From Anatilimnocola aggregata (GTDB lineage: Bacteria > Planctomycetota > Planctomycetia > Pirellulales > Pirellulaceae): a stretch of DNA of 64,000 bases. The DNA lies in the NCBI RefSeq assembly GCF_007747655.1, contig NZ_CP036274.1:1178001-1242000 (forward strand), given 5' to 3'. A model generated the notes under the pieces. It was not told the origin of the DNA. It did not search any database and saw only the letters and a list, made by a program, of their open reading frames with translations. Shown one piece after another: positions 5,744 through 22,811 of the stretch. Made by a program: the position numbers and the translations under genes. Positions within the stretch are counted from its first letter, which is position 1. The number at the start of each line of letters is the position of its first letter.

Positions 5744-5791
5744 ATCACTCTTACACAGTGGATGTCGTGGGTTCGAGTCCCCCACCGCCCA
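5744..5791 (+). pseudogene. 3' half of a tRNA-Val(UAC) gene
   Basis: An anticodon stem TCACT/AGTGG encloses the loop CTTACAC (5750-5756), giving anticodon UAC. The variable loop ATGTC follows, then a T arm (GTGGG, loop TTCGAGT, CCCCC with one mismatch) and the acceptor 3' strand ACCGCCC plus A. No D arm and no 5' acceptor strand (expected GGGCGGT) are present upstream, so this is a fragment, as is usual in an attachment site. The stop codon of intB (5751-5753) lies within the anticodon loop on the opposite strand. Confidence 0.75.
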
Positions 5792-7052
5792 TTAGAGGGG
5801 TTTTGCCTAAGTGAGCCAGAGTGCGACTTGGTGCGAAATCTTCCTTGTTTTTCGATGCTTCTGCCGACCGGGATGCCCTGGCTGGCGTGCTCAGTCCGGG
5901 GTTGTCGCATCCTGGTTGCACCGGATTTTGCAGCGCGCTATCAAGTGGCGTTGCTGCTGCCTTCTCAAAGTCGGTGTCCGTTGTCTGCCAGTAATGCTTT
6001 TGAGCAATCAGTGTGCTGTGCCCCAGCCACTCGGCGGCGACATGCCCCGGAAACTGACCGGCTAACTCTGTTGCTCGGGTTGCGCGAAGATTTGCGAACA
6101 GTTTCGGCCACGGTTTGAGGCCCGCGCGGGCGATGATCTTGAGAAGCGTCGTTCGCCAGTTCACCCCCGGCTCGCGTGATTTGGTGATAACGAATTCCGT
6201 GCCCGGTGCCGCTTGATCAAACATGCGTTCCAGAAGCACCCGAAGCTCCGGGAACAACGGAATGACACGGCTTGCGCCGCCAGCGTGATGTTCGGTTTTA
6301 GGCGAGTGAACGGTGATGCGGTTGCGCGCCCAGTCAATGTCACCCCACCGCAGGCCTAGGTGTTCGCTCGGGCAGCGCAGGCCGCCGAATCGACTGAGAG
6401 CAAAGATCATTTGCCATTCATCGCTGTTGCAGGCATCCAGCACCTTCTGAGCATCGGCGCGGGTGATGAAGTAGTCTTTCGAGTCATTCACTTGATCGCC
6501 AGATTTTAGATCTGCAAACGGGCTTTCCTCGACCAGTCGCTTCCTTACAGCCCATCGAAAAAATTGCTTTGCGATGCCGGCACGACGGCGGGCTGTGCTG
6601 AGCGATAGCTTCTGGTTTTGCTCGAGCCAGATTCGCCACGCTTCGGCATCGGCTGGCGTTACATCGCGCAGTGGCTTGCTATTGCCCAAAAACTCTCGCA
6701 AGCAGCGCATTGTGTGGCCGTAGACAATTTTCGTCGCGCGTTTAACATCCGGCCGGGCCTTGTCGTACAGGTCCAGCAACTCGCCCACGGTAACCGCCTC
6801 GCGCTCGGCAACTAGTCCGACGGCAACTAGTTTGTCGCGCAAGATCCCATCGATTTCATTCAGCCAACGGGCAGTACCATCGTCGATTGCATGGCCCGTG
6901 ATTGCCGCGGCGGCGAGAATCTCTACTCGGAACTTCACCGACTTAGCCATGGCTAATGGCACCGGGCCCAGGCGGATCGTCTTGCGACGCCGATTGGCTG
7001 CTTTGAACTGAATCGTCTTGTTGCCATTCTTGTCGGTAGCGAGAGATGCCAT
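5751..7052 (-). CDS. Tyrosine recombinase of element B (intB), C-terminus supplied by tRNA DNA
   Basis: The start ATG at 7052 has GAAAGG 8 bases upstream; an earlier in-frame ATG at 7118 is less likely. The 433-residue product has an N-terminal DNA-binding part (IQFKAANRRRKTIRLG), a SAM-like core-binding domain (TVGELLDLYDKARPDVKRAT) and the catalytic domain with box I Arg in SRFGGLRCPSEHLGLRWGD, FANLRATRATEL as box II (Asn where His is usual), WLGHSTLIAQKHYWQ with the His and the Tyr nucleophile, then a low-complexity tail. The last 13 residues (MGGGGLEPTTSTV) are encoded by the tRNA-Val fragment and end at a stop in its anticodon loop. The probable native tail is at 22574-22785. In the excised circle the protein would be about 498 residues. 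Activity of the integrated form is uncertain because this tail is lost. Confidence 0.88.
   Translation of the reverse strand: MASLATDKNGNKTIQFKAANRRRKTIRLGPVPLAMAKSVKFRVEILAAAAITGHAIDDGTARWLNEIDGILRDKLVAVGLVAEREAVTVGELLDLYDKARPDVKRATKIVYGHTMRCLREFLGNSKPLRDVTPADAEAWRIWLEQNQKLSLSTARRRAGIAKQFFRWAVRKRLVEESPFADLKSGDQVNDSKDYFITRADAQKVLDACNSDEWQMIFALSRFGGLRCPSEHLGLRWGDIDWARNRITVHSPKTEHHAGGASRVIPLFPELRVLLERMFDQAAPGTEFVITKSREPGVNWRTTLLKIIARAGLKPWPKLFANLRATRATELAGQFPGHVAAEWLGHSTLIAQKHYWQTTDTDFEKAAATPLDSALQNPVQPGCDNPGLSTPARASRSAEASKNKEDFAPSRTLAHLGKTPLMGGGGLEPTTSTV
5768..5793. other. Attachment core of element B, left copy
   Basis: A 26-base direct repeat identical to 22786-22811. It begins TGGGTTCGAG and ends CCGCCCATT, which is the T-loop and acceptor end of a tRNA gene, the classic target of tyrosine recombinases. 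Sequence on both sides diverges immediately. The core is inside the intB reading frame. Confidence 0.85.
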
Positions 7053-7197
7053 TCGTATACCTTTCAAAAAACTGAGTTCGTCGGTCGGAATCATACGGGG
7101 CGATGCAAGGGCTAGCAAGACTTCGCATTTCGTTTTTGCGATTCCCCTGTGCCCATTGAAGCCATCGGTTTGGAATTAAGGGAGGAAGGCCGGTCCG

Positions 7198-7308
7198 GGG
7201 TGGTCACCCTGACCCACCATTGCGGGTTGAATGGCAGCATGAATTGGCGAGTTAAACACCTTTTTTACGCATGCAGTTTCAGGTCACCCTGACCACCCCT
7301 GACCACCC
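7198..7308. repeat. GGTCACCCTGACC repeats downstream of the primase gene
   Basis: GGTCACCCTGACC, itself a short palindrome (GGTCA/TGACC), occurs at 7202-7214 and 7282-7294. CTGACCACCC occurs twice in tandem at 7289-7308. The repeats fill the gap between the primase stop and the intB start. They could be a replication origin recognised by the adjacent primase, or terminator/operator sites; position is the only support. Confidence 0.35.
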
Positions 7309-7312
7309 AGGA

Positions 7313-9478
7313 CTAGAAGCCCTCTAGTGAAAGCAATCGCACCCCGACATAGGTGTGCCACCGTTTGTCGCCTTCTCTGCGGCGAACGGGACGGACCGCT
7401 GGGCAAGCGGCATAAAGGTCGCGAGCGAACGTGGCATCGTTCACTGCCTTGCTGTTGTTCGCCAGCATCCAGGCGACGTAAGCGGCGTAGAGGCTCTTCG
7501 TCGGCTCTTCCACAAGGGGCGATAGTTCGCACCGTTCCCGCACAAAATGTCCAACGGGCGAAGTGAGGTCTTCCATCTGTTCTCGCATTTGGTCACCAGC
7601 CGCGGGCTGCAGGAGATACCCGCGCTCCCTGAGCCGCCGCCAGCCTCGGATTGCCCACAGCATAATTCCCGCGCGCTCTTCCAAAAGCTTTTCGGTAAGC
7701 TTTCGATCCTCGGCTCCGTAGAACGACTTGGTCATCCGCAGGATGATCAATCGACCTGCTAAAGCACCCGACGAATCGCCGAGCCGCGGGAGTTCGTTTG
7801 TCAATATCATCAACCGTGTCAATAGCTTAGTTGAGTTGACCGGGGGCAAATGCTTGCGATCAACGTCGATCCCATCTTCGCCGCTGATCGACAACAACCG
7901 TTCGGTTACCACGGCCGAATCCGTCCTGCCGCTCAATCGCGCGTCGCTGATGATGGCAACAGTTTTGTGAAGTAAGGACTGCAAACCGAAATTGGTTCCT
8001 AGCCCGCTCATCGTCGGGCCGCAACAGTTGTACTCACCGACGACGGATCGCAGTACCCGCGCGAGCGTACCTTTGCCGCTACGCTTCGGGCCGAGAATGA
8101 GTAGAATTTTCTGGAACGATGTATCTGGGGTAAGGCAAAGACCGAACCATTCCTGCAGCATGTCGACGCTCTCTTGGTCGTCTTCCCAAAGTTGAGCCAT
8201 GAATTGCAACCAGTGCTCCGGACTGGGCGCGTTCGGATCGAATTCAAAGTCAATCGCAGCCGGGCTGAAGAACAACGGTGTTGCCGGTATTGAGTAAAGA
8301 ATCGGCTCATTGGGATTGTTCAACACTGTTGCGAACGATGGCAAATGCACAATTGCGTTTTTTGTCGCCAGCAGGTCACGCGGTTCCCACGCCTCGCAGC
8401 CGTTCGGTTGTTCCAGCCAGCAAGGGGGACTATAGCTGACCGGTAAGATTGCTTGCGCTTTTACTTGGTCAAGCACATTGTTGGTGATTCCAGTCGACAG
8501 ATGGTTAAAGTCCTGATTGATTTGGTTCACCAAGCGCGCCCGTACCTCACACGGCGGGATCTCCACATAGCGGCCAGCAGTCCAAAGGACAAACCCACCC
8601 CGATGGAAGCGAACTCGATAGACTCCATCCTGTTCGCCGGTTTCCAGGAATTGTTTTGCTACTATTGCGGGGTCCAACTTGCTCGCAGTTAACTTTTCGC
8701 TATCCGGCGCAACCGGCAATGGTTCAATCGCATCGTCGATCAACTGCCGGAGTCGCCGTTTGCCATCGTCGCCGGCTGCAACCAGTAGGTCGTCCAGTCC
8801 TTGCTTAGCGCCTTCAATACCGTGAGGAATGCGTAGGCAACGAACGATAGCCCCTTGAGCGGCAAGTGCTGCGGCTAATCGAGACTCAGCATTCTGCACT
8901 CCCTCTTTTTCTTCGAGGTCGCTGTCAAACGCGATGAAGACCTTTCGGCCATGCCAAGCGATCTCGGCCAATTCCGGCAGCAAACATTCTTGTTTCGCAT
9001 GTTTCCAACCATAGACTCCCACTAGGCCTAGACAAGGAAAGCCTTCTTGGGTTGCCTTGGCAGATTTCTTTTCGCCTTCGGTGAACAGCAATTCCTGGCG
9101 AACGTCCTGCAGATAATCTGCAACGCCGGGGGGAAGATAAACTTGGTTCGGCTCGCCGCGAGGTGATTCGTACTTAATCTTTTTTTCGTTCCGATCGACG
9201 CGCGGATTGTCCGGCTTCACGCGGGAGTAGCCATTACTGCCGTCGGCACGAGCGAAGGGGAAAACGATGGCCGGTACCAGCTTCTTCACCCACCGTTCGT
9301 CAAGTTTCAAAATTCGGCCGAGCTTCGCCGGCGTCCACTCGGAATAGATGCCAGCTGCTTTTATAGTTTCGGCAGACAGGCCACTTCCTTCCATGAGTTC
9401 CCGCTCATGGTGCGGCATCAGTCCCTTGCCATCAGCTACTTGAGTGCTGGCGGTGGCAGGAGAGCGCGGGGCGGTCAT
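7313..9478 (-). CDS. Primase/SF3 helicase of element B (P4/D5-like)
   Basis: The start at 9478 is set by the ATGA overlap with the upstream HTH gene; a longer frame to 9808 runs over both HTH genes and is rejected. The 721-residue product begins with a DUF3854-type TOPRIM-like region (LLFTEGEKKSAKATQEG at about 120-140 and VFIAFDSD near 180). A linker follows, then a superfamily 3 helicase domain with Walker A LGPKRSGKGTLARVL, Walker B TVAIISDARLSG, and a sensor region LMILTNELPRLGD. The C-terminal domain resembles the D5/P4 winged-helix region. It would unwind and prime DNA at the element's origin, allowing autonomous replication after excision. Third gene of a coupled operon with two HTH proteins. 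Confidence 0.88.
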   Translation of the reverse strand: MTAPRSPATASTQVADGKGLMPHHERELMEGSGLSAETIKAAGIYSEWTPAKLGRILKLDERWVKKLVPAIVFPFARADGSNGYSRVKPDNPRVDRNEKKIKYESPRGEPNQVYLPPGVADYLQDVRQELLFTEGEKKSAKATQEGFPCLGLVGVYGWKHAKQECLLPELAEIAWHGRKVFIAFDSDLEEKEGVQNAESRLAAALAAQGAIVRCLRIPHGIEGAKQGLDDLLVAAGDDGKRRLRQLIDDAIEPLPVAPDSEKLTASKLDPAIVAKQFLETGEQDGVYRVRFHRGGFVLWTAGRYVEIPPCEVRARLVNQINQDFNHLSTGITNNVLDQVKAQAILPVSYSPPCWLEQPNGCEAWEPRDLLATKNAIVHLPSFATVLNNPNEPILYSIPATPLFFSPAAIDFEFDPNAPSPEHWLQFMAQLWEDDQESVDMLQEWFGLCLTPDTSFQKILLILGPKRSGKGTLARVLRSVVGEYNCCGPTMSGLGTNFGLQSLLHKTVAIISDARLSGRTDSAVVTERLLSISGEDGIDVDRKHLPPVNSTKLLTRLMILTNELPRLGDSSGALAGRLIILRMTKSFYGAEDRKLTEKLLEERAGIMLWAIRGWRRLRERGYLLQPAAGDQMREQMEDLTSPVGHFVRERCELSPLVEEPTKSLYAAYVAWMLANNSKAVNDATFARDLYAACPAVRPVRRREGDKRWHTYVGVRLLSLEGF

Positions 9479-9738
9479 TTGGCACCGCCTTGCGCTGTCG
9501 TAACGCGTTGACCAGGCCGCGGGCAGCCGGCGGCAATCCAAGCGCGTAGTTCGTTCGGGCAGTAGCGGGTCAAACGGCCGATGCGCCGGCACGGGATTGC
9601 CCCCTCGGCAACCAATCGATTGATGGTTCGGATCGAGATGCCAAGCAAATCGCCGGCGTCCAGGCCGTCGATCAACAATGGCTCTGGCTTCGTCGGCTCG
9701 GGCAGTTGCTGCCGCGGTGGAAGCAGGTGTCGGTTCAC
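9475..9738 (-). CDS. Excisionase-like HTH protein, second of two
   Basis: An 87-residue protein starting at a GTG (9738) that overlaps the previous stop (GTGA); its own stop overlaps the primase ATG by 4 bases. Residues 24 to 75 (LIDGLDAGDLLGISIRTINRLVAEGAI) form a MerR/HTH_17 winged helix with the usual PCRRIGRLTRYCPNELRAWI wing. Such proteins bind DNA to direct excision or control the operon. Pairing of two such genes before a primase fits a role in excision and replication control. Confidence 0.85.
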   Translation of the reverse strand: MNRHLLPPRQQLPEPTKPEPLLIDGLDAGDLLGISIRTINRLVAEGAIPCRRIGRLTRYCPNELRAWIAAGCPRPGQRVTTAQGGAK

Positions 9739-9947
9739 TTCGCCACCTCTTCACGCTGGGCAATCCAGGCTTGAAGTGCCGTTGGGGAGTACAGTACCCG
9801 TCGCCCAACTCGCACGAACGGAATCTGGCCCGAGTTGGTCAACGTCCAGAGTGTGCGGGAAGAAATGCTCAGCCGTCTGGCAGTTGCACGAGCGTCGAGT
9901 AGGAGCCGGTCGTTAAAGGTGATCGGGACCGACTGAGAAGTAGACAT
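9735..9947 (-). CDS. Excisionase-like HTH protein, first of two
   Basis: A 70-residue protein with one HTH_17 domain: LLLDARATARRLSISSRTLW (helix-turn-helix), then GQIPFVRVGRRVLYSPTALQAWI (wing and last helix). It heads the operon and overlaps the next gene by 4 bases. It could be the recombination directionality factor for intB or the operon regulator. No clear ribosome binding site was found, and inverted repeats that could be its operators lie just upstream. Confidence 0.85.
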   Translation of the reverse strand: MSTSQSVPITFNDRLLLDARATARRLSISSRTLWTLTNSGQIPFVRVGRRVLYSPTALQAWIAQREEVAK

Positions 9948-10240
9948 TTTCTAACCTCACTGCGATTTTATGTTCCAAAACATGCCAGATGCTCGGTCGC
10001 AGTATTTCGTTTGGCGCGCACGCGCACGGATTTCGCTGATTTTCGTGCGCGCTTCTGCAAGGAATTGAACGGCAACGTGCCGATCGGAATTGGGTTGCAA
10101 GAAAACGGCGTACGAAATTAAATGCCGCTTGACACAATTCCGATGCAGTGCGGAAGCGCACAAATTGCACTCGCGCCGAACTTAGCACTTTCCGACTATT
10201 TGCTTGGGAAGCTCAACGTTTGAAGGCCGGCATGAAGCAC
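9948..10240. promoter_or_regulatory. Control region of the HTH-primase operon
   Basis: The leftward operon starts at 9947, so this holds its promoter. Two inverted repeats stand out: GCGCGCACG (10014-10022) with CGTGCGCGC (10044-10052), and TCGGAATTG (10084-10092) with CAATTCCGA (10135-10143). A small ATGTT/AACAT palindrome lies at about 9969-9981. These could be operators or part of a replication origin. No gene is seen before the integrase remnant begins. Confidence 0.35.
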
Positions 10241-10620
10241 CTTGCGCCGTCCCTTCTACTGGAAATCTCGCAAAAGCAGGTTTATCAAAGTCAAGCAACC
10301 AGGTCGGTTCACGCCGAAATGTACTGCACCGCCAGGACGAGCAAACGGCGCCCAAGAAGTGGGCTGAGTTGGCGGCGGTCGATCGACCCGAGGCGCCGAC
10401 TGCCCAGATGTTTGCCTTTGCCGAGGCGTTGCTCCGCTGGGGCCGTCTCTAATGTCACGCCCAAGACTTACCGCGATTGCCAGGACTTCATTGTGTCCTT
10501 CTGCAAAATGCATCGCCACTCCGTCGTTCGCGATCTGAAGCCGTTTCCCTTGACTCGCTGGCATGCGACAGCGGATGGAATCCCTGGTCCATTTCTCTCC
10601 AAGGCTGTTAAGAAAAAGCG
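10240..10620 (+). pseudogene. Decayed tyrosine integrase, N-terminal part
   Basis: Three reading frames together resemble the N-terminal part of planctomycete integrases. The first has a PFYWKSRKSRFIKVKQPGRF-like stretch around 10240-10300. The second reads QDEQTAPKKWAELAAVDRPE around 10335-10400. The third reads TPKTYRDCQDFIVSFC followed by VRDLKPFPLTRWH around 10460-10565, the usual core-binding domain pattern. At least two frameshifts and the absence of a catalytic domain make it a relic, probably of an earlier occupant or an ancestral integrase. It is read opposite to intB. Confidence 0.6.
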
Positions 10621-11020
10621 GTCCCTTGATTCGCAGGGGAAGTGCGATGCGCGTGAGGGTCTGGCTGGTCGGCTTCACTTACTTCTGCGGCCACGCGGAG
10701 TCGCTCTGACGTCCCGCACCTTCGCCAACGGCAAACATCACGCCCCGGTATAAATCGCTGCAAAATCACCTCGGGAATCTCCATCCTGGGGCTTCCGTTT
10801 CATGGCTAGACACAATGTCTGCTGCGGTGGCAAAAAAACTAGCAGCCTAAGCGGTTGCTACGGAAGCATTTGCGCGCTGGCTCAAGAGATTTCGTGCGCA
10901 GACGGAGATTTTTGTCGCCAGAGAGCCCCGCGAAGTCCACTTATGGATTGAAGCCACACGACTACGCGAACTGCATGTCGCAGTTGGGTAGCAGTGGCAA
11001 AACCAAACAGGAGTCTTTCT
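10621..11020. other. Intergenic region, nothing assigned
   Basis: Between the integrase relic and the next gene there are only short frames in several registers without ribosome binding sites. A promoter for the gene at 11021 is expected but none was defined. Confidence 0.35.
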
Positions 11021-11392
11021 ATGTACAAGGTTGTTGTTGAGGTATCCCCTCGCGATTACCACGAGGTCGCCGCCGAGCTGGCAGTACCTGATTACGGGGG
11101 GGCGTGGATTGTCGCCTCGTGTAATTCAGTTGCCCAGACCGAATCGTCATCCGACACCTTCGGAATGGCATTCAAAGTCGTGTTGGCATTCGACTGCATC
11201 GCAAGCGAGTGCCTCCAGGCGTGGGTTGTGGGGGAACCTTGGTTTCTTGCAATCGACACGTCAGGAAATCAGGTGGCCCGCAGCGAATGCCGAGCATCGC
11301 GTCAGGGAACCAGCTCGTCTGGTTTCATTCTCCCTCTCGCGCCAAACGATTGGGTTACGTGCTTACCTCCAGCGGAGGCAATCGCGGCCTAG
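11021..11392 (+). CDS. Hypothetical 123-residue protein of element B
   Basis: The ATG at 11021 has CAGGAG about 8 bases upstream. An upstream GTG at 10994 is in frame but lacks a site. The protein (MYKVVVEVSPRDYHEVAAEL) begins with a beta strand and an amphipathic helix. It continues as a mainly beta-rich domain without Cys clusters or membrane segments and ends APNDWVTCLPPAEAIAA. No family is recognised. It is read rightward, apart from the primase operon, with two further rightward genes behind it. Confidence 0.5.
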   Translation: MYKVVVEVSPRDYHEVAAELAVPDYGGAWIVASCNSVAQTESSSDTFGMAFKVVLAFDCIASECLQAWVVGEPWFLAIDTSGNQVARSECRASRQGTSSSGFILPLAPNDWVTCLPPAEAIAA

Positions 11393-11538
11393 TCACACAC
11401 CAAACCCAGAAGATCCCTCGCGGCCACGCTTTTTTCCAGACGGGAAGACGCAGTGGTAGTGCTGAACATTCAGTCATTGTGGCCCGAGTCTAAGCTATCC
11501 ACTGCGACTTCTCCGTCTCGAAGAGACGAAGAAGCAGA

Positions 11539-12138
11539 ATGAAGGATTTGCAAGCTAATAAGTTTCAGCGGACGCTGAAACGCCTTGTGAGAAACGCAAT
11601 TGGAGGACGGTTCCTCCCGCAAGGTGCAACCGAAGATGAGATTTCGCAACAAGCATGTTTGCTGCTTGTGCTCCTCTTGGGGGTGGAAAAATGTGAACAA
11701 CTCATTGATCAAGAGAGCCTTGCAGCCGAAGACATCCGGATGATGACTTTGGCCGCAAAGCGAGCGGCAGGTAACGCTATGTGGGCCACCCAGAAGCGTA
11801 ACCAGCGGAGCAAGCAGCGCAAGTTGGCAGAACTCAAGCAGTGGTTTCCGGAAGCTTCCGCGGCTGAACTTCAGGTTCGTCTGGGTAAGCTTGCCGAATT
11901 CGATCGCTTGAGCCTAGCGGAAGAGCAACCCGCTCGACCGGAATTAAACGTCGAAGTTGTCGCCGACCTTCGAGATGCTTTTTTTCACATGTCATCGATT
12001 GAGCGTCGCTTGATCGACTTGCTGCGGAAACGCATTTCCAGAACAGCGATCCGAAAGCGACTTCAAGTTACGAGAGAGGAGCTGGTAGTGCTCATCGATT
12101 CGCTCGAACAAAAGTTGCTAAGCATCATTAAACCATGA
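11539..12138 (+). CDS. Sigma-factor-like or helical DNA-binding protein
   Basis: A 199-residue, mostly helical protein. The N-terminal part (RTLKRLVRNAIGGRF...) and middle (RSKQRKLAELKQWFPEA) are basic. The C-terminal 60 residues (LRDAFFHMSSIERRLIDLLR, ISRTAIRKRLQVTREELVVL) have the spacing of a sigma-70 region 4-type helix-turn-helix. Family membership is not certain. It could regulate element genes. The next small gene begins 8 bases after its stop, so the two are probably co-transcribed. The ribosome binding site is weak. Confidence 0.5.
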   Translation: MKDLQANKFQRTLKRLVRNAIGGRFLPQGATEDEISQQACLLLVLLLGVEKCEQLIDQESLAAEDIRMMTLAAKRAAGNAMWATQKRNQRSKQRKLAELKQWFPEASAAELQVRLGKLAEFDRLSLAEEQPARPELNVEVVADLRDAFFHMSSIERRLIDLLRKRISRTAIRKRLQVTREELVVLIDSLEQKLLSIIKP

Positions 12139-12145
12139 GAGCAGC

Positions 12146-12367
12146 ATGAAAACCAAAAAGATCGTTAGTGGCCATGGGGGGAAGGACGATGCCAAGCAAC
12201 TGCTTGCCATTCGTTCCTTCTTAGGCCTACTAACACCCCGACAAATTGCTGAGACAAAGCTCCGCACTGTCTCAGACCCCGAATTGGGAGCGATGCTTAA
12301 CGCTCTCGAAACGGGGTGGAAACTAGGTTCCGTGCTTCGCTCGGAACCGGCCAGCCCTCGTGAGTAG
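12146..12367 (+). CDS. Hypothetical 73-residue protein
   Basis: This lies 7 bases downstream of the sigma-like gene, with GAGAG just ahead of the ATG. The product (MKTKKIVSGHGGKDDAKQLL) is helical and partly basic. Its middle, LGLLTPRQIAETKLRTVSDP, might form a short helix-turn-helix. There is no membrane segment. It probably works with the preceding gene. Confidence 0.45.
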   Translation: MKTKKIVSGHGGKDDAKQLLAIRSFLGLLTPRQIAETKLRTVSDPELGAMLNALETGWKLGSVLRSEPASPRE

Positions 12368-12531
12368 TCAACAGGTTCGCCTCCGCCCGCAATGATGCGG
12401 CGGGGGGCGGAACTTGTCGTCGCTCGATAGGGAACCAGTAGACGCTCGGTACCAATACCGAGACCCAACATCATCGAGCGACGCTGCTAACGCTGCGTCG
12501 CTTTTTTCATGTGCCGTCCGCTCCCGCTGAC
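12368..12531. other. Short gap between the small genes and the decayed cluster
   Basis: It contains a GC-rich stretch with no recognised gene or clean terminator. Confidence 0.3.
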
Positions 12532-14300
12532 TCATCGCCGCAGCAGATTGATCGTCGGCACTTCCCAGCGTTGATAATCGGTCGGCGGATCTGCGCCCTG
12601 GCCGACGATATCCAGTTTCAACACGTGCGTTCGTTTCCCCTGCGATAGCAGCGACCCATCGCCCGATGGTGTCGTATATTCGAAGTTGAATGCGAAGAAC
12701 CCACCGAGACGGTTCCGGCTTTGCAGCGGAGTCAATCGTCCAGCCGCGACCGTATTGTAAGGTGTCGAAGATCACCTCCGTCTTGTCGAGCGTGATGCTA
12801 CTGACGACATTCACCGGATCCGTCAGATCGTAGACATGGTGCTTGATGGCGCTGATGTCCGCCTGCTGAAGCGCTACCGCATCGCAATCTTCCAACCTAG
12901 CCATCAATTTGACTCTGCCACTTCGAAGACAGCCGGAAGCTGAATAACCTTCACGGATTTCTCCTTCGACGGCTCGAGCACCAGTGATCAAACCAACCGC
13001 CGCTGCGACACCAGGAGCGATATGCGCGACGGCGACGGACCCCGGCATTTAGTAACCCACCGCAGTAACGCGAATCGTGGTGGCAATCGACACGAAGAAG
13101 GTCACGGTTGACGGCAGACTCGCGTTGCCGGGACCAACCGCAACAGCTTCAGGACTTCGAGCGACCGGGCGGGGCGCTGAGATTGGCTTTGAGTGGCATC
13201 GAACCGTTGTCGATCGCCGCTTTGAAGCTGTCGAACTCGTCGAGATCGAGGGGGCCGCCATCGACCACGACACCCCGCGGCACTTTGTCCGCCGGCCGGT
13301 TGTGGCAATTCAAGCACGTCAGAGCGCCGAGCTGGAATGCACCTTTACAAGCGCGGGGCACGCCCTGCGGTTCATCCAGATGCGTGACATCGTTGTTCCG
13401 TCCTCGCGCACGGTGACTTTGAGTGATCGCGTCTGCGCCCCACAGGCGTCCGGCCTTACCGCCCGGCAGGCGGCTTCCACAGCCCGACCTTGGGCGTCGA
13501 TGGTTGCCGCCTGCAGCATCTCGCCATCGAGACCGTGGGCGGAGGATGTGAACTCGCTGGAAACTTCCAACGCCCGCCGCGCGTTGTCGAGATACAACGC
13601 CGAGTTAGGCGCGTAGTACTCGAGTGCTCGCGCCAGTCCATAAACGGTCGGAGCCTTCGGCGCGAGATCGCCGGCCGGAGCAATTTTGTTGAAGATAAAG
13701 TTCTGAACCGCCCGCTCGGGAACGACCGGCGTGGCGCCTGTAACAACGGGGCAGCGAGGTCGCTTCGGTGGGGGTGATCGTCTGCAGGTTTTCCATTTCA
13801 GCAATGATCGGTTCCGCAGTCACGCGAAACCGCTTAATGCCCCTACGCGGCGCGGACCTGCTTGCTGTTGCATGCGCAGCATTTGTGCCTCGGCCGACAG
13901 TACCGGAGCGAGCGCCGGGTTCTCCGCCCAACTCCGCAAGTGCCGCGAGTCCTTCCTCTTTTCCCAAGCCCAAGTCGTCGAACTCGCGGACATTCCGCGC
14001 GGCATTCAAACACACATTCACAACGTTCGCTTCTTGTTCGCGCGCGAGCCGTTTGCAGCTCCCAGTGCTTCCGTCCCCCTTCAGCCGCGCGTCGAAGAGG
14101 CGGGCGACGGTAGGTCAAACGATCGGTCTGCACTTCGGTCGCCTGGGCGCCGGCCCAGTTTCCCCAAGTGTCTTTTCGCCCGGCGACGCCATGCTTGCGC
14201 GCGAGATCGCTGCCCATCGGTTGGTTCCGATCGGAGATCTCCCGGCCGACGGAGCATACCGCATTTTGGCGACAGGATCGCTTGCGGGGGCAGCGCAGGA
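12532..14300 (-). pseudogene. Decayed gene cluster, several frames
   Basis: Gene-like peptide segments appear on the minus strand in different frames without any intact ORF. They include ADISAIKHHVYDLTDPVNVV with ITLDKTEVIFDTLQYG (about 12745-12880), FFAFNFEYTTPSGDG with THVLKLDIVGQGADPPTDY ending at 12532, LARALEYYAPNSALYLDNAR (about 13590-13640), and MENLQTITPTEATSL near 13760-13800. One pair of frames is joined as stop-start TAA-ATG near 13048. This pattern fits a run of phage-structural-like or element genes that have lost their frames through indels. What they were is not known. Confidence 0.4.
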
Positions 14301-14707: not shown

Positions 14708-14967
14708 TGTCTCCTCCTTTCTTGGTAAGGGGTGGCGGTGGAACAACAGGCTCGGCGAGGCTGCAACCTTGCCGGGCCGTTTTCGTTTTCTCGCGAAGAC
14801 AAACCCTCTAATAAACAGGTGGACATGGACCGGTTGTTCCGTCCATTTTTTGCCCCGCCATCCCCGGAAATCCACTTGCGGCGGGCTTCTTTCTGCTTGC
14901 TTTTTGCCCACCATATTTTCAGGGTCGGGCGTCGCTTCTTGCCTAGTCTTGCTGCAGAACTTCTCCG
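14708..14967. other. Intergenic region, nothing assigned
   Basis: The longest frames here overlap the microprotein's neighbourhood in other registers and look like shadows. Confidence 0.3.
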
Positions 14968-15159: not shown

Positions 15160-15349
15160 TTGAAACCTCGAAGCGCGCATGCGCTTCGGCAACTCTCTGG
15201 TGAGTCCGCAAACTTGCGAGAAGTTCGCAATCAGCTCACGTTTGGCGTGATTTGCAACTAAGTAGTCTGCCTCATCACCACATGACCAGATTTTGGCAGG
15301 GTCATTACAAAACCTCACTTGACCGAATGCAAAACAGCGAACCGTTATT

Positions 15350-16081
15350 TTAGTCGGCGTTTTTCTTTCGCTGTCGCCCGCGCATCGCCCGCACTTTCCC
15401 TTGTAGCCGCGTCAATTCCCGAACCTTAATTCCGTGGGCATCGCAAAACTCTTTTCGTGACGTCCCTTGCCGACGTGCGGCCTCGTAGTGCCTGAGTAAT
15501 TGCAATTCGCTGGGCAAAAGGGGATGGGGTTTTGACTTTCGTCCGCGGCCATTTGCTTTCGCAGCTGGCTGGGTGGAACCAAGCGTATCCAAACGGTGAC
15601 AAAGCACGCCTTCAAAGTCCTCATAGACGCCAGTCAGCCCGCGGATCGCTTCTTGTGCCTCGCGGACGTGGTTGCCGTATCGGTGAGCAAAGTCGTCGGT
15701 TGACAGCGGGGCACAAGAGTCCTTTTCGATCGCATTTCTACACTCGCGCACAATGTCGCGATGCGACTCCATGTCGTGGCGCAAGGCGTCCGGAAGATGC
15801 TCGTTGACGCGCTGCCATCGCGCAGCGGGTAACTCTTGCAGCGGACGGAAAGCAGCGACATTCTTGGCAAGCCAGGTCGCGTACTTTCCGATCTTGTGGC
15901 GGACAACGGAGATTTTTGCGAGAGATAGGGATTCGAGCCTCACTGCATCGTCGACATCGATACAGCCGGCGTAGAACGCGATCAGGTTTTGTGTTTCCCG
16001 CAGGAGAGTTCGCAGGCCGGCGCGTGAATCGAGCATCGAAATTACGGCGCTGACGTCTTGTTTCGCGCTTTTGCGTTTCAT
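15350..16081 (-). CDS. Third gene of the restriction operon, helical with C-terminal HTH
   Basis: A 243-residue protein whose ATG overlaps the stop of the methyltransferase by 4 bases. The first 150 residues are helical (MLDSRAGLRTLLRETQNLIA) with a negatively charged middle. A Lys/Arg-rich hinge follows, then residues 195 to 240 (EAARRQGTSRKEFCDAHG, REGKVRAMRGR-like end) with the pattern of a helix-turn-helix. It is the last gene of the operon, so it may regulate or assist the system, for example as a modification-linked control protein. No known subunit is recognised. Confidence 0.55.
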   Translation of the reverse strand: MKRKSAKQDVSAVISMLDSRAGLRTLLRETQNLIAFYAGCIDVDDAVRLESLSLAKISVVRHKIGKYATWLAKNVAAFRPLQELPAARWQRVNEHLPDALRHDMESHRDIVRECRNAIEKDSCAPLSTDDFAHRYGNHVREAQEAIRGLTGVYEDFEGVLCHRLDTLGSTQPAAKANGRGRKSKPHPLLPSELQLLRHYEAARRQGTSRKEFCDAHGIKVRELTRLQGKVRAMRGRQRKKNAD

Positions 16082-18900
16082 TTCACGGAGTAAACCTTCA
16101 GCACTTCATCGCCGTAGTGGTTGATTACCTTCACGGCGATTTTCCCCTTCTTCGCCGGCACGGGGAAAGGTTGGCTGCGGGTGGAGTAGAGCGAGGCCCA
16201 GGCGGATTCGTCGATTTCGGCGCGGAGGGCGCGCTTCAGCTTTTCGTAGGGCTCGCCGGCGCCAGTGAAGTAGGCGTGGCGGACGAAGAACGCTTCGTCA
16301 TCGTAGTCGGTATCGATGAACCAGCAGGCGATGTCGTCGGTCGAACTGTTGCGAATCACGCCGGTCGTCGGGTCGTAGACGTCTACGCCGTGAATCTCGA
16401 CAACCACCCTCTCGTCGCCAGACTTTTTGTCTTTCGTCCGTTTGATTGCAATGTCCGGCTCGCCGAAAACCATGAACAGGTTGCCAGCCCCGGTTTTCTT
16501 GAGCAACTCATCGCCCATGGACAGGTCGGGGTTCATCCGGCAGATCTGCACGTTCAGCTTGCCGTATCGCTTGGCCTCTTCGTTGACGTGCGGATCGAAT
16601 GAGAAGCCGCAGACATAGAGCAAGTCGAAGCCCACGCCGCGGACAGCTTCCTTGGCAGCTTCTTTGATGAGCTCTGGGCCGACGGTGCCGTGCTCGGGGC
16701 CGATGCAAACGGCGACGCGTTTCTGCTTGCCGTCGGCATCGGTGAAGTCACCCGCGGCGTGGATCCACTCGCCAGCATAGGGTTCCAGGTGGTCGAACTT
16801 CAGGCGTTCGCGTTTCTCGCGAGCTTGAATGCCGGCCTTCTTCAGATTCTCGATGATCATGGTCCCAAAGCGGTCGGGGCCGATGATCTGCGTCTTGAAG
16901 CCGGGGACGAACTTGGTCCCTTCGATCTTCTCTTGCACGGTCAGCCGGCGATGCGGCGAGAGGCTTTCAACAGTGAAAGGGCCGGTCACGCGCACCCGGC
17001 TGTTGTCTTCATAAGGCTGATCGAACAGCAACTCGTGGTCGGCCCGCTTGGCAATGGCGGCGTCGATGTCCTGCTGACGACTACGGAGATTGGTCCACCA
17101 GTCGGCCAATTTCTTTTTAGCAGTCGCGGGCCATTTCTCTTCCGGCTCGCGGGGGATTTCCCATTCTTCCCATTTCGTTTTGAGGATCTTGTTTAACTCG
17201 GCCCGCAGCGTTTCGAGTTCCTCCTGCCAGCGGGCGTGAATCACGTCGATCGCTTCATTGTTGGCAATCGACTTGAGCGTGACGTGAGGGACCCGCTTGT
17301 AGACAAAACCCTTCTTCACGTCCGCTTCGGTTTGATACGGCGGCGGGAACCGGCCGGTGACCTCCGCTTCCTTCTTCAGCCCCTCCGGCGAATCGGAAAG
17401 GAGATAATACGGAAACCGCCCCGCCATCAGCCGCGTCCGCGCCAAGGCAATTGCCACGCGACTCGTATCGCACGTGATCCACCGGCGGCCCCATTGCTCG
17501 GCGACATAAGCGGTCGTCCCACTGCCGCAGGTCGGATCGAGGACGAGATCGCCGGGATCGGTGGTCATGAGGAGACAGCGCGCAATTACGAGTGGACTCG
17601 TCTGTACGACGTAAGCTCTCGCCTCGGCGAATCCAGAAACAGCGGTGTCGGTCCACGTATTGGTAAGTGGGAAAACTGGGAAATCGTCAAGAAAGCGAAC
17701 ATAGGAAAGCGTGTTTCCAATAGCAATTAAGCGGTTAGCAGATGCCAATCGCTTTAGGCCATCCGGGCTTGTCGACCAATACCTTGCGTTCGGCGAAAAC
17801 GACCTACCCTCAAATACGTAATCTCCTTTGCCCAGGCTGTACTCGTGACTGGACGTCAAGTTGTCGCCGCGGAATGGACGTGACATGACAGGCAACTGTC
17901 CATCGCCCTTAACTTCAGAAGATGTCATTCGACGGCGTTGACCATCTGGAAGTTCGATGGATGAGTATTGTGCTGCTCCTTCGCCTCCCAATTCTTTGGA
18001 AATCCAAACCTGCCGAACTTTGACGTTTGACTTGTCTTTTGCAAACCAAAGTATGTAGTCGACGACGCCAGGTATAACGCCGCTCGTCGAAACACTTGTT
18101 TTCTTGAACGCAAGTTGCGCGCACTGGTTCTCAGTTCCAAAGACTTCATCCATCACCGCTCGCACCAAATGCACATTCTCATCCCCAATCTGCACAAACA
18201 CGCTGCCTGACTCCGTTAGCAGGTCACGGGCAACGATGAGCCGATCGCGCAGGTAAGGCAAATACGAATGAATGCCTAACTGCCAAGTATCTCGAAACGC
18301 CTGCACCTGTTCCGGCTGGCGGCTGGCGTCTTCGGCCTTGCCGTCTTTCACATCCCGCTTGCGGGTGCTCACCTGCCAGTTACTGCCAAACTTGATGCCG
18401 TAGGGCGGGTCCATGTAAATGCATTGCACCTGACCTTTGAGCCCTTCTTTCTCCGCGAGGCTCGTCATCACGTGGAGCGAGTTCCCCAGTATCATCCGGT
18501 TGGTCCAGTGGGCGTCGTGCTGATAGAACTCGACCTTCTTTTCGAACGTATCAATGCCATTGAAATCGGCGAACAGATCGAGCTGCTGCTGCGCCGGCTT
18601 GACCGCAAACCGGTTTTTTAAATCGTCGACGATTACCTGCGGATGAATTTTTTCCTGGATGTAAATCGGTACTACCGGCACTTCGAGCGCGCCGCGGTCC
18701 TGCTCGTCCTTCCCCTTCCAAACCAATTGCGGGTCCAGCGACGGATCGCGTGGATAGAGCATGGCCCGCGGTTCGTCCTGGTAGAAATCTCGCAGTTCTT
18801 CCGTCGGAATGTTCTTCCGCCGGTCTTGCTTGTGCTTGATGACTTCCACCGCGGAATCGGCTGCTGCCGCCACGGATTTGCTTTTTGCCTTCTTGGCCAT
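16078..18900 (-). CDS. Type III-like DNA methyltransferase (Mod)
   Basis: A 940-residue protein that would methylate the host DNA at the system's site. Motif IV is DPPY (residues 164-167 in IYMDPPYGIKFGSNW), characteristic of N6-adenine methyltransferases. Motif I, the AdoMet-binding DPTCGSGTT, comes later (about 455-463), so the order IV-I is that of the beta class. The region between them, residues 200 to 440, is the variable target-recognition domain. The C-terminal 450 residues include several domains seen in Type III-related Mod proteins of the BPTD_3080-type systems. It ends 4 bases into the next ORF and starts 28 bases after Res, so Res, Mod and the third gene form one operon. Length and motifs look intact. 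Confidence 0.88.
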   Translation of the reverse strand: MAKKAKSKSVAAAADSAVEVIKHKQDRRKNIPTEELRDFYQDEPRAMLYPRDPSLDPQLVWKGKDEQDRGALEVPVVPIYIQEKIHPQVIVDDLKNRFAVKPAQQQLDLFADFNGIDTFEKKVEFYQHDAHWTNRMILGNSLHVMTSLAEKEGLKGQVQCIYMDPPYGIKFGSNWQVSTRKRDVKDGKAEDASRQPEQVQAFRDTWQLGIHSYLPYLRDRLIVARDLLTESGSVFVQIGDENVHLVRAVMDEVFGTENQCAQLAFKKTSVSTSGVIPGVVDYILWFAKDKSNVKVRQVWISKELGGEGAAQYSSIELPDGQRRRMTSSEVKGDGQLPVMSRPFRGDNLTSSHEYSLGKGDYVFEGRSFSPNARYWSTSPDGLKRLASANRLIAIGNTLSYVRFLDDFPVFPLTNTWTDTAVSGFAEARAYVVQTSPLVIARCLLMTTDPGDLVLDPTCGSGTTAYVAEQWGRRWITCDTSRVAIALARTRLMAGRFPYYLLSDSPEGLKKEAEVTGRFPPPYQTEADVKKGFVYKRVPHVTLKSIANNEAIDVIHARWQEELETLRAELNKILKTKWEEWEIPREPEEKWPATAKKKLADWWTNLRSRQQDIDAAIAKRADHELLFDQPYEDNSRVRVTGPFTVESLSPHRRLTVQEKIEGTKFVPGFKTQIIGPDRFGTMIIENLKKAGIQAREKRERLKFDHLEPYAGEWIHAAGDFTDADGKQKRVAVCIGPEHGTVGPELIKEAAKEAVRGVGFDLLYVCGFSFDPHVNEEAKRYGKLNVQICRMNPDLSMGDELLKKTGAGNLFMVFGEPDIAIKRTKDKKSGDERVVVEIHGVDVYDPTTGVIRNSSTDDIACWFIDTDYDDEAFFVRHAYFTGAGEPYEKLKRALRAEIDESAWASLYSTRSQPFPVPAKKGKIAVKVINHYGDEVLKVYSVK

Positions 18901-18928
18901 GATGCGTGCTTTGCCCGTGCTATAGGAA

Positions 18929-21900
18929 TCAGGTCGTTGCCAACTCTTTGGTTTCGCGCAGGAATTGGCGCAGGATCGTTTTCAAGTTCCAAGGGTCGCT
19001 AGTTTCCAGGAATGCCCAGCGGCCGAATTCGCCGGCGTTGTTCACCGCGGGAATCCACAGGTTGCGGGCTGTCGCTACCTTCGCCGATTTTTCCTTCTTC
19101 GCCTCGCCGGAACATTCAAGCACCAGATTGAGCAAATCATCCGGTCCCTGCCCATCGTCAATGCGAACCAGAAAGTCCGGGAAGTAGCGGCGCTCGATGC
19201 CGTTGATGGTGTAGGGGATGGTGAAGCCAAGCCCCTGATTCTTGACGTAGTGAATAACCTCCCGAAGATCTTCGAGCACGTCCGCGACCTTTTGCTCCCA
19301 GGTCTTGGTGTCGGCGACCATGTGCGAAATATGGCACTTCGCTGGGCTGGTCGGCATTGTGGGTCGCACGGTACTGAAATCAACGCAATCGGTACTGCCC
19401 AGCGGATCGTAGGGCTGCATGATCGGCAGCAAAATCTTGCGGCCGGCGTCGTTGTTGTCGCCGCTGACGATGGCGAGATAAATCCGGTCGGCGGCATCGT
19501 GGGCGAACTCGACCAACAGCAGTAGTTGCTTGAATGCGTCATCGCTGACGTCGACACATTGGTCGAGCCACTCCTGGGCGATTTGCAGCAGTTGCGGAAA
19601 TCGCCAGGCTTGGACCTCATTGTTCCAAGTATGGGCCGCGGGGCGGTCGGTCTGCTTCTCGTTGTCGGCGCGGAAGTACTTTTCCAGCGTTAGCTTGGCG
19701 AGGAGGAAAGCGACTTCCTTTTCCCTGCGTTGCTTCAGGTCGTCGAGCGTGTGAATTACGGATTGACCGACGATCGGCGCGTTCTCGGTCTTAGTCGGAA
19801 TGTCCTTCGTCGAGAGTTTTAGCCGGCAATCACGGGTGAAGCGGTATTTGAGCTCCGGCTCCGCAATGTCATACCGGTAGCCGAGCAGCCGGGGGAAGGA
19901 AATCGCGCATTCCTTTCGTTCGGACAAAGCGCGGACGCGGGTGGGCTGCGGCGTTGGCTTGGGGTTCGCGCTGCCGGTGCTGGCAATGAAGGAGAACGGC
20001 ACGCCGTAGACTTCGGCGTATTCGGGCTCGAATTTACCTTCCGAATTGAGGCTGTAGCTCATGCGCCGCAGGCCGCGGCCGACTACCTGCTCGCAGAGAA
20101 GCTGTGTGCCGAAGGCTCGCACTCCCAGAATGTGCGTGACCGTGTTGGCGTCCCAGCCCTCGGTGAGCATCGAGACGCTGACGACGCACTTGATGTTCTC
20201 GCCCAGCTTGCCGGCTTTGCCGACGGTGTTCATCACTTCGCGGAGAAGTTCTTCGTCGGTCACCTTGTCGGCATCGCGGCCGGGGAAGCGGGCGCGGTAC
20301 TCGGCTTTGAATTCCTCGATCTCCGCGCCAGCGAGGGCTTTGAACTCCGGACTGAGGGACTCGCCCGATTCAAGCTGCTCGCTGTCGATCAGGACGGTAT
20401 TGGGGCGATGCGTCCACTCGCCCCCTTGCTCATTGCTGAAGATCGGCAATGCGCCGGGAACCACGACTTCGGATCCGTCCGGAAGCTCTTTCTCCCAGCC
20501 CGCAATAAAGTCGAAGACCATCTTGGAAACGTTGGTGTTGTTGCAAACGACGATGAAGACCGGCGGCGTCAATCCTCGGGCTCGAGCCTCGGCGTTCTGC
20601 TCCCAGCGCTCGTAGGACTTCTGGTAATTCTGATAGAGGCTGAGTAGCGCCCCTTGGAGCTTGGCCGGCAGGTGGGGCGGGCCGGTTTTCGCGTCGGTCT
20701 TGCGTCCCTTCTTGGGAAGGTCGTCGCGGATGGCGTGCCAGATATCGCGATAGGCCAGCACTTCGCTACTGCCGGAATCGTCCGCAACGGGGACGCGGGG
20801 GATTTTGACGATGCCGGCTTCGATGGCGTCGATGAGGGAGAAATCGGAAACTACCCAGGGGAAGAGTTTTCCTTCGCCGTAGCCGCTCCCTTTCAGAAAG
20901 AAGGGTGTCGCGGACAAATCGTAAACCGAGCGGATGCCGATCTTTTGCTTGATGGCTTCCAGGCCGGTAATCCAGACGCGGGCTTCCTCGTTCCGCTTGG
21001 CAGCTTCCTTGCGATCGTCGCCGGTGAGTTTTTCCGTCGCTTCATCGGCGGCCGCGGCCTCATTCGCCTCATCGTCGGCGATGGCCGCCGGCTTGCCACG
21101 GTAACAGTGATGCGCTTCGTCGTTGATAACGACAATGTTTTTCTTGGTTCCCAGTTCTCGCAACACGCGGCGGACCATTTCGTCCGGGGATTCGGTGAAG
21201 GGACTCGGCCCCCCTTGGGCCAACAGCTTTTTCGTCAGGCTCGCGGCAGATTCCTTTTCCCGGAGCAGAAATCCGTGGTAATTCGCGATGATGATCTTGG
21301 CCTTCTGCAAATCGTCCATTTGCCAGGAGGGGACAATATCGCGCTGCCGGTAGTAACTGTTGGGATCGCTGGGCAGTAACACTCGCAACCGGTCGCGGAT
21401 GGTAATGCCCGGGGCGACAAGTAAGAAGGCATCGGCAAATTTCGGGTTCTGCCGGTCGGCAATCTTGTTGAGCGTGTGCCAGGCAATGAGCATGGCCATG
21501 ACCACCGTCTTGCCGCTACCAGTCGCCATCTTGAATGCGATGCGATCAAGCAGCGGGTTGTGGGCGTCGTTGAAGCTTTTGAGCTCGGTGGCAATCCACT
21601 GGTCGCCGCAGCGGGCCGCCGCTTCGGTCAGATAGATGACGGTTTCCAGGGCTTCGATCTGGCAGAAGAAGAGGGGCTTGTCGCGGTCTGGATCGGTCCA
21701 GTACTCCAGCAGACGCCGGGAAGTGGGGGTGATACTCGGGTAGCGACCTTCCCGCCATAGCCTCACCCGCTCGCGAACGTCGTTGATGAATTTACTTTCG
21801 ACCTTTCGGTCATCCGTCCAATCGGTGTCGAAATACTTTTGCTTTTCCTTTTTCTTCTGCTGGGGGATCGGAAGAAAATAAGCGCTGGGTCGGCGACTGG

Positions 21901-22003
21901 AAATGATTTCTTCCGTGATGCCGTCGTCGTCAAACTTGAAATGACGGCTCGGTTCCTCAAAAGGGCCGTTGAGGATCGGATTTTCGATGTTAACTGCCGC
22001 CAT
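18929..22003 (-). CDS. Restriction endonuclease subunit Res, BPTD_3080-like
   Basis: A 1024-residue SF2 DNA translocase. Walker A ATGSGKT is at residues 160-166, DEAH at 295-298 (NDEAHHCY), SATPFFLKGSGY lies near 370, and a helicase C-terminal part follows (SVSMLTEGWDANTVTHI, ARG finger-like QVVGRGLRRM). The C-terminal nuclease-like domain has FPDFLVRID with Asp943 and VLECSGEAKK with Glu963. The third position expected in PD-(D/E)xK enzymes is Ser965 rather than Lys. The sequence resembles the BPTD_3080 family in overall layout. It is first in the operon, ahead of Mod. Its own promoter would lie in the AT-rich region shared with the divergent HTH gene at 22234. Confidence 0.85.
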   Translation of the reverse strand: MAAVNIENPILNGPFEEPSRHFKFDDDGITEEIISSRRPSAYFLPIPQQKKKEKQKYFDTDWTDDRKVESKFINDVRERVRLWREGRYPSITPTSRRLLEYWTDPDRDKPLFFCQIEALETVIYLTEAAARCGDQWIATELKSFNDAHNPLLDRIAFKMATGSGKTVVMAMLIAWHTLNKIADRQNPKFADAFLLVAPGITIRDRLRVLLPSDPNSYYRQRDIVPSWQMDDLQKAKIIIANYHGFLLREKESAASLTKKLLAQGGPSPFTESPDEMVRRVLRELGTKKNIVVINDEAHHCYRGKPAAIADDEANEAAAADEATEKLTGDDRKEAAKRNEEARVWITGLEAIKQKIGIRSVYDLSATPFFLKGSGYGEGKLFPWVVSDFSLIDAIEAGIVKIPRVPVADDSGSSEVLAYRDIWHAIRDDLPKKGRKTDAKTGPPHLPAKLQGALLSLYQNYQKSYERWEQNAEARARGLTPPVFIVVCNNTNVSKMVFDFIAGWEKELPDGSEVVVPGALPIFSNEQGGEWTHRPNTVLIDSEQLESGESLSPEFKALAGAEIEEFKAEYRARFPGRDADKVTDEELLREVMNTVGKAGKLGENIKCVVSVSMLTEGWDANTVTHILGVRAFGTQLLCEQVVGRGLRRMSYSLNSEGKFEPEYAEVYGVPFSFIASTGSANPKPTPQPTRVRALSERKECAISFPRLLGYRYDIAEPELKYRFTRDCRLKLSTKDIPTKTENAPIVGQSVIHTLDDLKQRREKEVAFLLAKLTLEKYFRADNEKQTDRPAAHTWNNEVQAWRFPQLLQIAQEWLDQCVDVSDDAFKQLLLLVEFAHDAADRIYLAIVSGDNNDAGRKILLPIMQPYDPLGSTDCVDFSTVRPTMPTSPAKCHISHMVADTKTWEQKVADVLEDLREVIHYVKNQGLGFTIPYTINGIERRYFPDFLVRIDDGQGPDDLLNLVLECSGEAKKEKSAKVATARNLWIPAVNNAGEFGRWAFLETSDPWNLKTILRQFLRETKELATT

Positions 22004-22233
22004 TGGATACCGCTGCCCTGCGGAGTGCTGATAGATGCAAGGGTTTGCAAGCTGGTGCAGATTCTAGCGGCGAATAGGAGGGGCCGCCACAAGTAAGAGA
22101 ACCCTTTGGACTGGGGAACCGGTCGGCTATAAGTGTGCAACAAATCGAGGAGCAAAATTTTTTGAGCATGCCGTTTTTCTTACGGGCGATAAAATAAAAA
22201 ATATTCGACGATTCGTAGCATCAGGATTCAGCC
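22004..22233. promoter_or_regulatory. Divergent promoter region between Res and the HTH gene
   Basis: This 230-base spacer is AT-rich toward its right side (for example ATAAAATAAAAAATATTC). It serves the leftward restriction operon and the rightward HTH gene, so the HTH protein may act here. No exact promoter was assigned. Confidence 0.4.
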
Positions 22234-22533
22234 ATGGCTCTCGCAGAATGGACCGACAGCATCAGCAATGACGAAGCTCGTCGTCGGGCCGGCGGCCGGC
22301 GGCGGTACAATGCACTCCGACAGTTTCAGGCGGATCATCGCCAGATGTTGGTGGCAAAGATGATTCAAGCGAGCGGATTCCGGCGAGGAGTTCAGTCCGA
22401 AATTGCCCGCAAGCTGGGCGTCGATCGCGCGACGATCAGCCGTGACGTGAAGGAACTGCGCACCGAGTGGCTGAAGGAAGAGGAATTTCGTCAGTTCTTA
22501 GCAGCATGCGTCGCCGAGACCGTTGCTCGATGA
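22234..22533 (+). CDS. HTH DNA-binding protein divergent from the restriction operon
   Basis: A 99-residue basic protein. Residues 18 to 80 contain a long basic helix (RRRAGGRRRYNALRQF) followed by a helix-turn-helix (QSEIARKLGVDRATISRDVKEL), the motif seen in many small regulators and controller proteins of restriction systems. It is transcribed away from Res, a frequent arrangement for a controller that binds in the shared spacer. A weak CAGGATTC precedes the ATG. A controller role is inferred. Confidence 0.75.
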   Translation: MALAEWTDSISNDEARRRAGGRRRYNALRQFQADHRQMLVAKMIQASGFRRGVQSEIARKLGVDRATISRDVKELRTEWLKEEEFRQFLAACVAETVAR

Positions 22534-22573
22534 TGGCTCAAAAATTCGCTGAGCGACACTTGGGAAGATGCAA

Positions 22574-22785
22574 CTACGATGCTTTGCGAACAAGGGCCAG
22601 CACCTTAGCGCGATCCTGCGGCGAAAGGGCCGGCCACGCAGCAATTATCGCCGCCAAATCAGGATCGCTGGTTCCCGCTGGAGTCGTGCAATTCGGGCAG
22701 CTGTTTTCATCACTTGCACCGGATTCTGCAGCGCGCGAATTCGGCGATTGCCGTAAGTTGCTGTCCTGACAATCGCTTAGAGGAT
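22574..22785 (-). pseudogene. Stranded C-terminal tail of intB
   Basis: The minus strand frame runs from the right attachment core (reading MGGGGLEP across the core) through NPLSDCQDSNLRQSPNSR and ends PQDRAKVLALVRKAS at 22574, 70 residues beyond the core. It is in the same frame as the intB body at the left core. The end (SDPDLAAIIAAWPALSPQDR) resembles the C-terminus of planctomycete integrases. It has no start of its own outside the core, so it is not an independent gene. Joining the two cores in the excised circle would restore it to intB. Confidence 0.8.
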
Positions 22786-22811
22786 TGGGTTCGAGTCCCC
22801 CACCGCCCATT
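22786..22811. other. Attachment core of element B, right copy
   Basis: Identical 26 bases to 5768-5793. Left of it lies element B's integrase tail; right of it lie TTGGGTAAA iterons. There is no anticodon arm here, so the tRNA-derived sequence is limited to the core. Confidence 0.85.

Follow-up and report, generated by a model that had tools for sequence, protein, structure and literature searches.

The 64,000-nucleotide stretch of the Anatilimnocola aggregata genome analyzed here (the window; G000:C1:1178001-1242000 of the 9.0-Mb single-contig genome G000) carries a 17-kb integrated element, element B, whose tyrosine integrase gene, intB, is split in phase at its own attachment (att) core. 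The body of the gene keeps the catalytic residues and ends in codons supplied by transfer RNA (tRNA) sequence, and its native tail lies at the far end of the element. We regard it as highly probable that a catalytically complete integrase, with attP located in a linker, loses its C-terminal hairpin upon integration, and that the two resulting forms of the enzyme would differ in activity or partner choice.

Element B is bounded by two identical copies of a core repeat of exactly 26 bp, the left one (attL) lying inside the intB frame, as the initial annotation of this DNA had claimed (Table 1). With up to three mismatches allowed, the 23-bp centre of the core occurs twice in the window; 100 dinucleotide shuffles gave no match. 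Across the whole genome there are three matches, the third of which is within an intact tRNA-Val(TAC) gene at G000:C1:1110314-1110387, ~68 kb left of the window. A 46-nt 3′ fragment identical to this gene is present at the left core. The last 13 residues of intB, which ends in MGGGGLEPTTSTV followed by a stop, are read antisense from this fragment, and the TTA of the anticodon loop, read on the other strand, supplies the stop codon TAA; the attribution of the intB end to tRNA sequence therefore stands. The involvement of a tRNA in targeting stands likewise, with the correction that the site is a tRNA 3′ fragment and not an intact tRNA gene. The fragment probably forms the right end of a neighboring element, element A, and served as attB for element B.

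At the right core (attR), a minus-strand frame reads MGGGGLEP plus 70 residues (78 aa) in the same register as intB, as had been noted at first inspection. It stays open for 78 codons from the core in the intB register versus 10 and 32 codons in the other two phases. Body, core, and tail joined from the ATG at 7052 amount to 498 residues, compared with 433 for the integrated form, which reproduces the joined open reading frame (ORF) of about 498 codons proposed earlier; rejoining upon excision is a prediction. The intB product matches PF00589 with 36.5 bits, above the curated cut-off of 27.1, and its catalytic Tyr is residue 376 of 455, upstream of the core codons that begin at 443. Three positions, R223, R325, and Y356, which we presume to include catalytic residues, are invariant across 53 aligned sequences, intB among them. 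The tail consists of a GAESGA-like linker followed by a hairpin with the pattern D-x-L..AWPxL..I+xxILxxV, and has no match in Pfam, NCBIfam, or PHROG.

The tail recurs widely. Searched as a single sequence, it has matches in 13 of 199 family genomes; a profile built from ten tails finds it in 79 of 294 Planctomycetota genomes. The genome of the window is counted both times, and both sets are samples from larger groups. Many of the matches are short frames that open with peptides encoded by the antisense strand of tRNA 3′ ends (GLEP, IRTP, DSN etc.) and continue as D-x-L..AWPxLP..I+xxILAxV. A crude tRNA-end motif precedes the hairpin in 27 of the 43 tail frames from loci L011-L054 (L012 and L026 are one place, and L014 yielded no tail). 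Among 36 tail pairs (55-97% protein identity), 35 showed a higher proportion of synonymous (pS) than of nonsynonymous (pN) differences, although these pairs overlap and were picked by protein similarity, a bias toward pS > pN. The tail is present in two diverged integrase groups, the intB-like group and a distant group with E values of only ~1e-12 to 1e-25 against the intB-based profile, the strongest of these matches including the seeds. As a separate observation, a 17-bp tandem repeat (CCGTCGCTACTGAGTGC) is found in or near the tail of the L084 element.

We then inspected the phase between tails and integrases, starting from the tails. For tails with enough contig, DNA was fetched in the reading direction (73 tail hits), and a row was regarded as paired when an integrase ORF contained the same core (at least 14 bp) overlapping a tRNA or transfer-messenger RNA (tmRNA) called by ARAGORN. 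Twenty-eight tail/integrase rows share such a core, and 26 of them are in phase (binomial P 7e-11). One of the two misses, L102, is an artefact of self-overlap at distance 0. The pair in the window stands outside the 28 rows because only tRNA fragments are present there; L079 and L089 are closely related to each other, the core of G463 is just 14 bp, and in L104 and G018, where the longest repeat is not the core, the tRNA-overlapping repeat was taken for the phase test. The in-phase targets comprise tRNA-Met, Ser, Leu, Ala, Asn, Val, Arg, Gly, Lys, Tyr, Cys, and His as well as tmRNA, and both integrase groups carry the tail. In L093 the frame traverses the tRNA in the sense direction and is still in phase.

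These results bear on two alternatives. Antisense frames over tRNA genes are common, and GLEP-like peptides could arise by chance in any frame running across the 3′ end of a tRNA; such an origin is practically negligible given the phase agreement, the conservation of the tail, and the unsplit ORFs described below. The tail region might instead be retained as DNA, for example as arm-type sites by attP, rather than as protein. It does adjoin the core, but this reading is highly improbable: the module is conserved as protein throughout the phylum, body and tail agree in phase in 26 of 28 rows, and pS exceeds pN (subject to the selection of pairs by protein similarity, a bias in this direction). 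That the right-hand frame is the integrase's own tail, as first suggested, is borne out by the in-phase rows and by unsplit relatives in viral contigs.

The complementary analysis started from the integrase bodies and used the best 80 genome-contig relatives from a scan with the intB alignment. They carry Planctomycetota group titles apart from two titled bacterium only, and we take the named genera to belong to this phylum. The integrase ORF ends in, or at most 60 bp from, an opposite-strand tRNA in 65 of the 80; of the rest, three have the crude tRNA-residue motif only, nine end elsewhere, and three run off the contig. None of the 80 ORFs, these last three included, contains the tail. The tail is located elsewhere at 10 of the 80 loci, and seven of these have an integrase-tail core in phase, namely L281, L291 (the same contig as L072), L306, L311, L321, L329, and L333, the last with 15 bp only. 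An unbiased search of the fetched flanks for a second core copy of at least 16 bp found six, all of which open an in-phase tail. For 12 further bodies, 11 whole genomes were searched; 10 of the bodies have a tail where it is expected, ahead of them on their own contig and strand, and eight of these 10 share with it an in-phase core of at least 16 bp. A cultured relative, Lacipirellula limnantheis I41, carries two such paired elements.

Relatives with an unsplit integrase were found among viral contigs, as the initial annotation would lead one to expect. This sample contains 135 relatives, 77 intB-like and 58 of the distant group, and body and tail form a single ORF in 11 of them (seven intB-like and four distant), or nine if L129/L130 and L141/L142 are the same viruses. 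The same 11 were recovered with a tail profile free of viral tails. Of the other ends, six are at a tRNA, 22 have another extension, and six run off the contig. A T-loop-like pattern is found between body and tail in L141/L142, L217, L253, and L258. That such contigs are free elements is shown only indirectly, by a terminase gene ~4 kb downstream of the L253 integrase (two of eight ORFs match PHROGs, one being the terminase). The L142 contig is weak as a phage, since none of the six ORFs by its integrase matches PHROGs, and circularity of L141/L142 is unproved because the outer ends of the two contigs share no terminal repeat. Compared with named phages and plasmids, the unsplit L135 protein matched 9 and 1 records, respectively, none covering 80%. 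Joined genes also occur in arrays. In the tandem array L067, an integrase body and the tail of the next element form one 390-residue frame. This frame lacks the beginning of the integrase, so that the body is incomplete; the second integrase reads into an intact tRNA-Ser. L321 likewise has the look of a tandem junction: a 382-aa frame from position 2 carries another, partial integrase body that continues in frame into the in-phase tail. Hence, genome contigs mostly have the gene split, and the joined version was seen in viral contigs and at array junctions, which is the expectation if integration makes the split.

To describe the joined protein, we used an AlphaFold2 model of the unsplit L135 integrase built on a 53-sequence alignment; a single-sequence model was poor (mean predicted local distance difference test score 41.6) and was not used. 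The body is predicted with confidence to residue 370 (ten-residue means of at least 83), residues 382-456 are predicted to be disordered, and a helical hairpin is modeled at 457-473/477-492, with means of 78, 93, 91, and 71 over 461-496. The peptide PPRGVEQ, beginning near residue 423 as counted from the C-terminus, was taken as the L135 core because it resembles PPRGVEP, the peptide at which relatives enter tRNA-Glu; the T-loop pattern did not mark it. As the model runs from the body through a disordered stretch with the presumed core to the hairpin, the exchange site seems to be situated in a disordered linker between two folded parts. A disordered segment of this length, separating the catalytic domain from the hairpin, together with the retention of the catalytic residues in the body, would also suit a split that is a mere by-product, with both forms equally active, the linker just tolerating tRNA residues, and the tail serving stability or another role. 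We consider this unlikely: the tail is a conserved domain with pS above pN in nearly all pairs and is common to two diverged integrase groups, and these features point to a function in the tail-bearing form.

The following sequence of events would account for the split. In the excised circle, body, core, and tail would constitute one ORF from which the full-length integrase is made. Integration would swap the hairpin for a few residues encoded on the opposite strand of the target tRNA, which also sets the stop codon, and would leave the hairpin as an orphan frame at the far end of the element. Activity or the choice of partner may not be the same in the two forms, in which case the enzyme would be reset by the integration event itself. 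The tail might favour integration, or provide a protein contact needed for it; its loss might stabilise the integrated state, or bias the enzyme to excision together with an AlpA-like factor, as reported for Mx8. The HTH_17 protein of element B, which we take to be a candidate AlpA/excisionase-like factor, could act in excision. More tentatively, and with less than even confidence, we propose a phylum-wide class in which the integration event is a directionality switch, the detachable hairpin defining the circle enzyme, the tRNA-read end defining the integrated enzyme, and a single module sufficing for many tRNA targets, in islands as well as phages.

Two further alternatives concern what the loss of the tail would do. 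The integrase may be suicidal, i.e. inactivated by tail loss, with the element locked in place until an intact integrase arrives. The tail is indeed absent from the integrase ORF in all 77 of the 80 genome-contig relatives with a visible end, and archaeal SSV-type integrases are described as working in this way (PMC8371274); yet the catalytic domain stays in the integrated ORF, and the integrase of the Myxococcus phage Mx8 is reported to be changed in specificity in the lysogen without loss of activity (PMC6070905). Inactivation is thus quite unlikely here, and modulation appears the likelier outcome by analogy with Mx8. SSV-like inactivation was also tried as the main reading and was set back, the catalytic domain not being split. 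Alternatively, the orphan tail might be translated alone after integration and act in trans with the body. There is an ATG at the core with AGAAGG 7 nt upstream (minus strand 22811-22840), but the DNA upstream of the orphan tail belongs outside element B, and we deem this possibility very unlikely.

Several observations weigh against a hairpin swap that resets the integrase. The tail-first rows include one, L110 (tRNA-Ser), that is truly out of phase, and 45 of the 73 tail hits are unpaired under the strict test. Starting from the bodies, L319 has a 203-bp stretch common to integrase and nearby tail that is out of phase, and L327 and L337 have no 14-bp core common to both. Among the further bodies, the L272 integrase stops 2 nt short of its core, L270 and L317 have no matching core between body and tail, and whole-genome search revealed no tail on the contig of L312 or L340. 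In the viral sample, 90 of 135 relatives have neither a tRNA end nor a tail or long extension, and the T-loop pattern was found in just five of the 11 unsplit ORFs, being missing between body and tail of L129/L130, L135, L143, L150, and L213. The integrase bodies of the unsplit array-junction genes, L067 and L321, are partial. Finally, the switch in activity between the two forms is predicted from sequence.

Aside from intB, element B encodes a P4-type primase and a type III restriction-modification system as its cargo. The restriction-modification pair spans 16078-22003, with a Res subunit of the BPTD_3080 family, and the HTH_17 gene overlaps a long upstream extension of the primase frame. 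About 150 bp past the right core (22810-22956) are 89% identical to the DNA after the intact tRNA-Val and include TTGGGTAAA repeats and a terminator-like hairpin; this stretch could represent either another end of the A type or a region of arm sites.

Table 1. Features of element B and of the adjoining end of element A (window coordinates).
Feature	Position	Strand	Remarks
intA, presumed integrase of element A	4328-5632	-	434 aa
3′ fragment of tRNA-Val(TAC), 46 nt	5746-5791	+	Identical to intact gene G000 1110314-1110387
intB, tyrosine integrase	5751-7118	-	455 aa (TTG 7118) or 433 aa (ATG 7052)
attL, left copy of 26-bp core	5768-5793		Inside intB frame
P4-family primase/helicase (DUF3854, DUF5906)	7313-9808	-	TIGR01613 146.3 bits, cut-off 108.7
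HTH_17 protein	9475-9738	-	38.3 bits, cut-off 27
Type III restriction-modification Mod methyltransferase, cargo	16078-18900	-	
Type III-like restriction subunit Res (BPTD_3080 family), cargo	18929-22003	-	1174.6 bits, cut-off 800
Small HTH protein near right end of element B	22234-22533	+	HTH_11 24.7 bits, just under cut-off 25
Detached native tail of intB	22574-22810	-	78 codons + stop, in register with body
attR, right copy of 26-bp core	22786-22811		Identical to left copy

Element A is most simply read as a ~73-kb element between the intact tRNA-Val and position 5745, with the 46-nt fragment as its right end; it extends over window 1-5791 plus G000:C1:1110388-1178000. We infer that element B integrated into the tRNA fragment that ends element A. 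The presumed integrase of element A, IntA, has no match in Pfam or NCBIfam, and its N-terminal end adjoins the att site. Elsewhere in G000 there are two integrase remnants (L002 1573-2013 and L003 1656-1781), one of which runs into a tmRNA gene (GIEPASRDLSTAAS) and the other into tRNA-Val(GAC); the C-terminus of the latter is nearly that of viral contigs L134 and L136. Two more tail-like orphan frames are present at G000:C1:6850444-6850629 and 8274590-8274682, for which no partner integrase was detected within the fetched 19-kb stretches.

The tail-swap arrangement appears to be the rule in a large integrase family within a single bacterial phylum. An orphan tail marks the otherwise hidden distal end of a tRNA island, and a tRNA-derived C-terminus in an annotated integrase is to be read as an integration product. 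Moreover, the two natural integrase forms make the discrimination between 'free' and 'integrated' testable. We found no description of a phylum-wide integrase family with a conserved detachable tail in the open-licence literature, most subscription papers being outside the search; among the titles and abstract openings inspected, none concerned a planctomycete case.

Element B resembles P4-type tRNA islands and satellites in having a tyrosine integrase, an HTH_17 gene, a P4-family primase, and a tRNA 3′-end target. In the usual P4-type layout, int stands beside attP with its own stop, whereas attP of element B is inside the integrase gene. Element B also shares with Islander tDNA islands the signature of a tRNA plus a displaced fragment. 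The Islander filter admits integrases that extend across attP, naming Mx8 and SSV (PMC4383910), but that account, as far as its passages on such integrases go, has no detachable conserved tail or planctomycete family. In the archaeal 'suicidal' integrases of SSV1, pTN3, and pT26-2, the att site is within the gene and integration disrupts it; the fragment parted from the N-terminal part holds the catalytic domain (PMC8371274). The comparison with SSV made in the initial annotation holds for an att site inside its own gene and for the splitting of this gene, and fails for the catalytic part, as the catalytic Tyr stays in the intB body. The suggestion that a bacterial case may be undescribed does not survive the precedent of Mx8 (PMC6070905, PMC4383910). 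In this phage, attP lies in frame inside int and integration gives int a new 3′ end, converting IntP to IntX; Mx9 is mentioned as following a similar principle (PMC6070905). The Mx8 integrase has the same anatomy as intB, with a tRNA-matching att core in frame inside the int ORF: an antisense T-loop (ARSTGLEPVLLG) is located near residue 457 of 574 and is followed by ~110 aa. An unsplit form as in Mx8 was seen in the viral-contig relatives and not for element B. The similarity in sequence is remote. Mx8 Int scored 8.5 and 9.8 bits with the integrase profiles (E ~1e-5 for one sequence) and 1.8 and 2.3 bits with the tail profiles, and the best blastp E value with intB was 1.2; intB is grouped with it by working principle and not by sequence family. 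Different from Mx8, the conserved tail module of planctomycetes is used with many tRNA targets throughout the phylum, both in islands and in phage-like contigs. The kind of arrangement has thus been described in Mx8, and its scale across Planctomycetota appears to be new.

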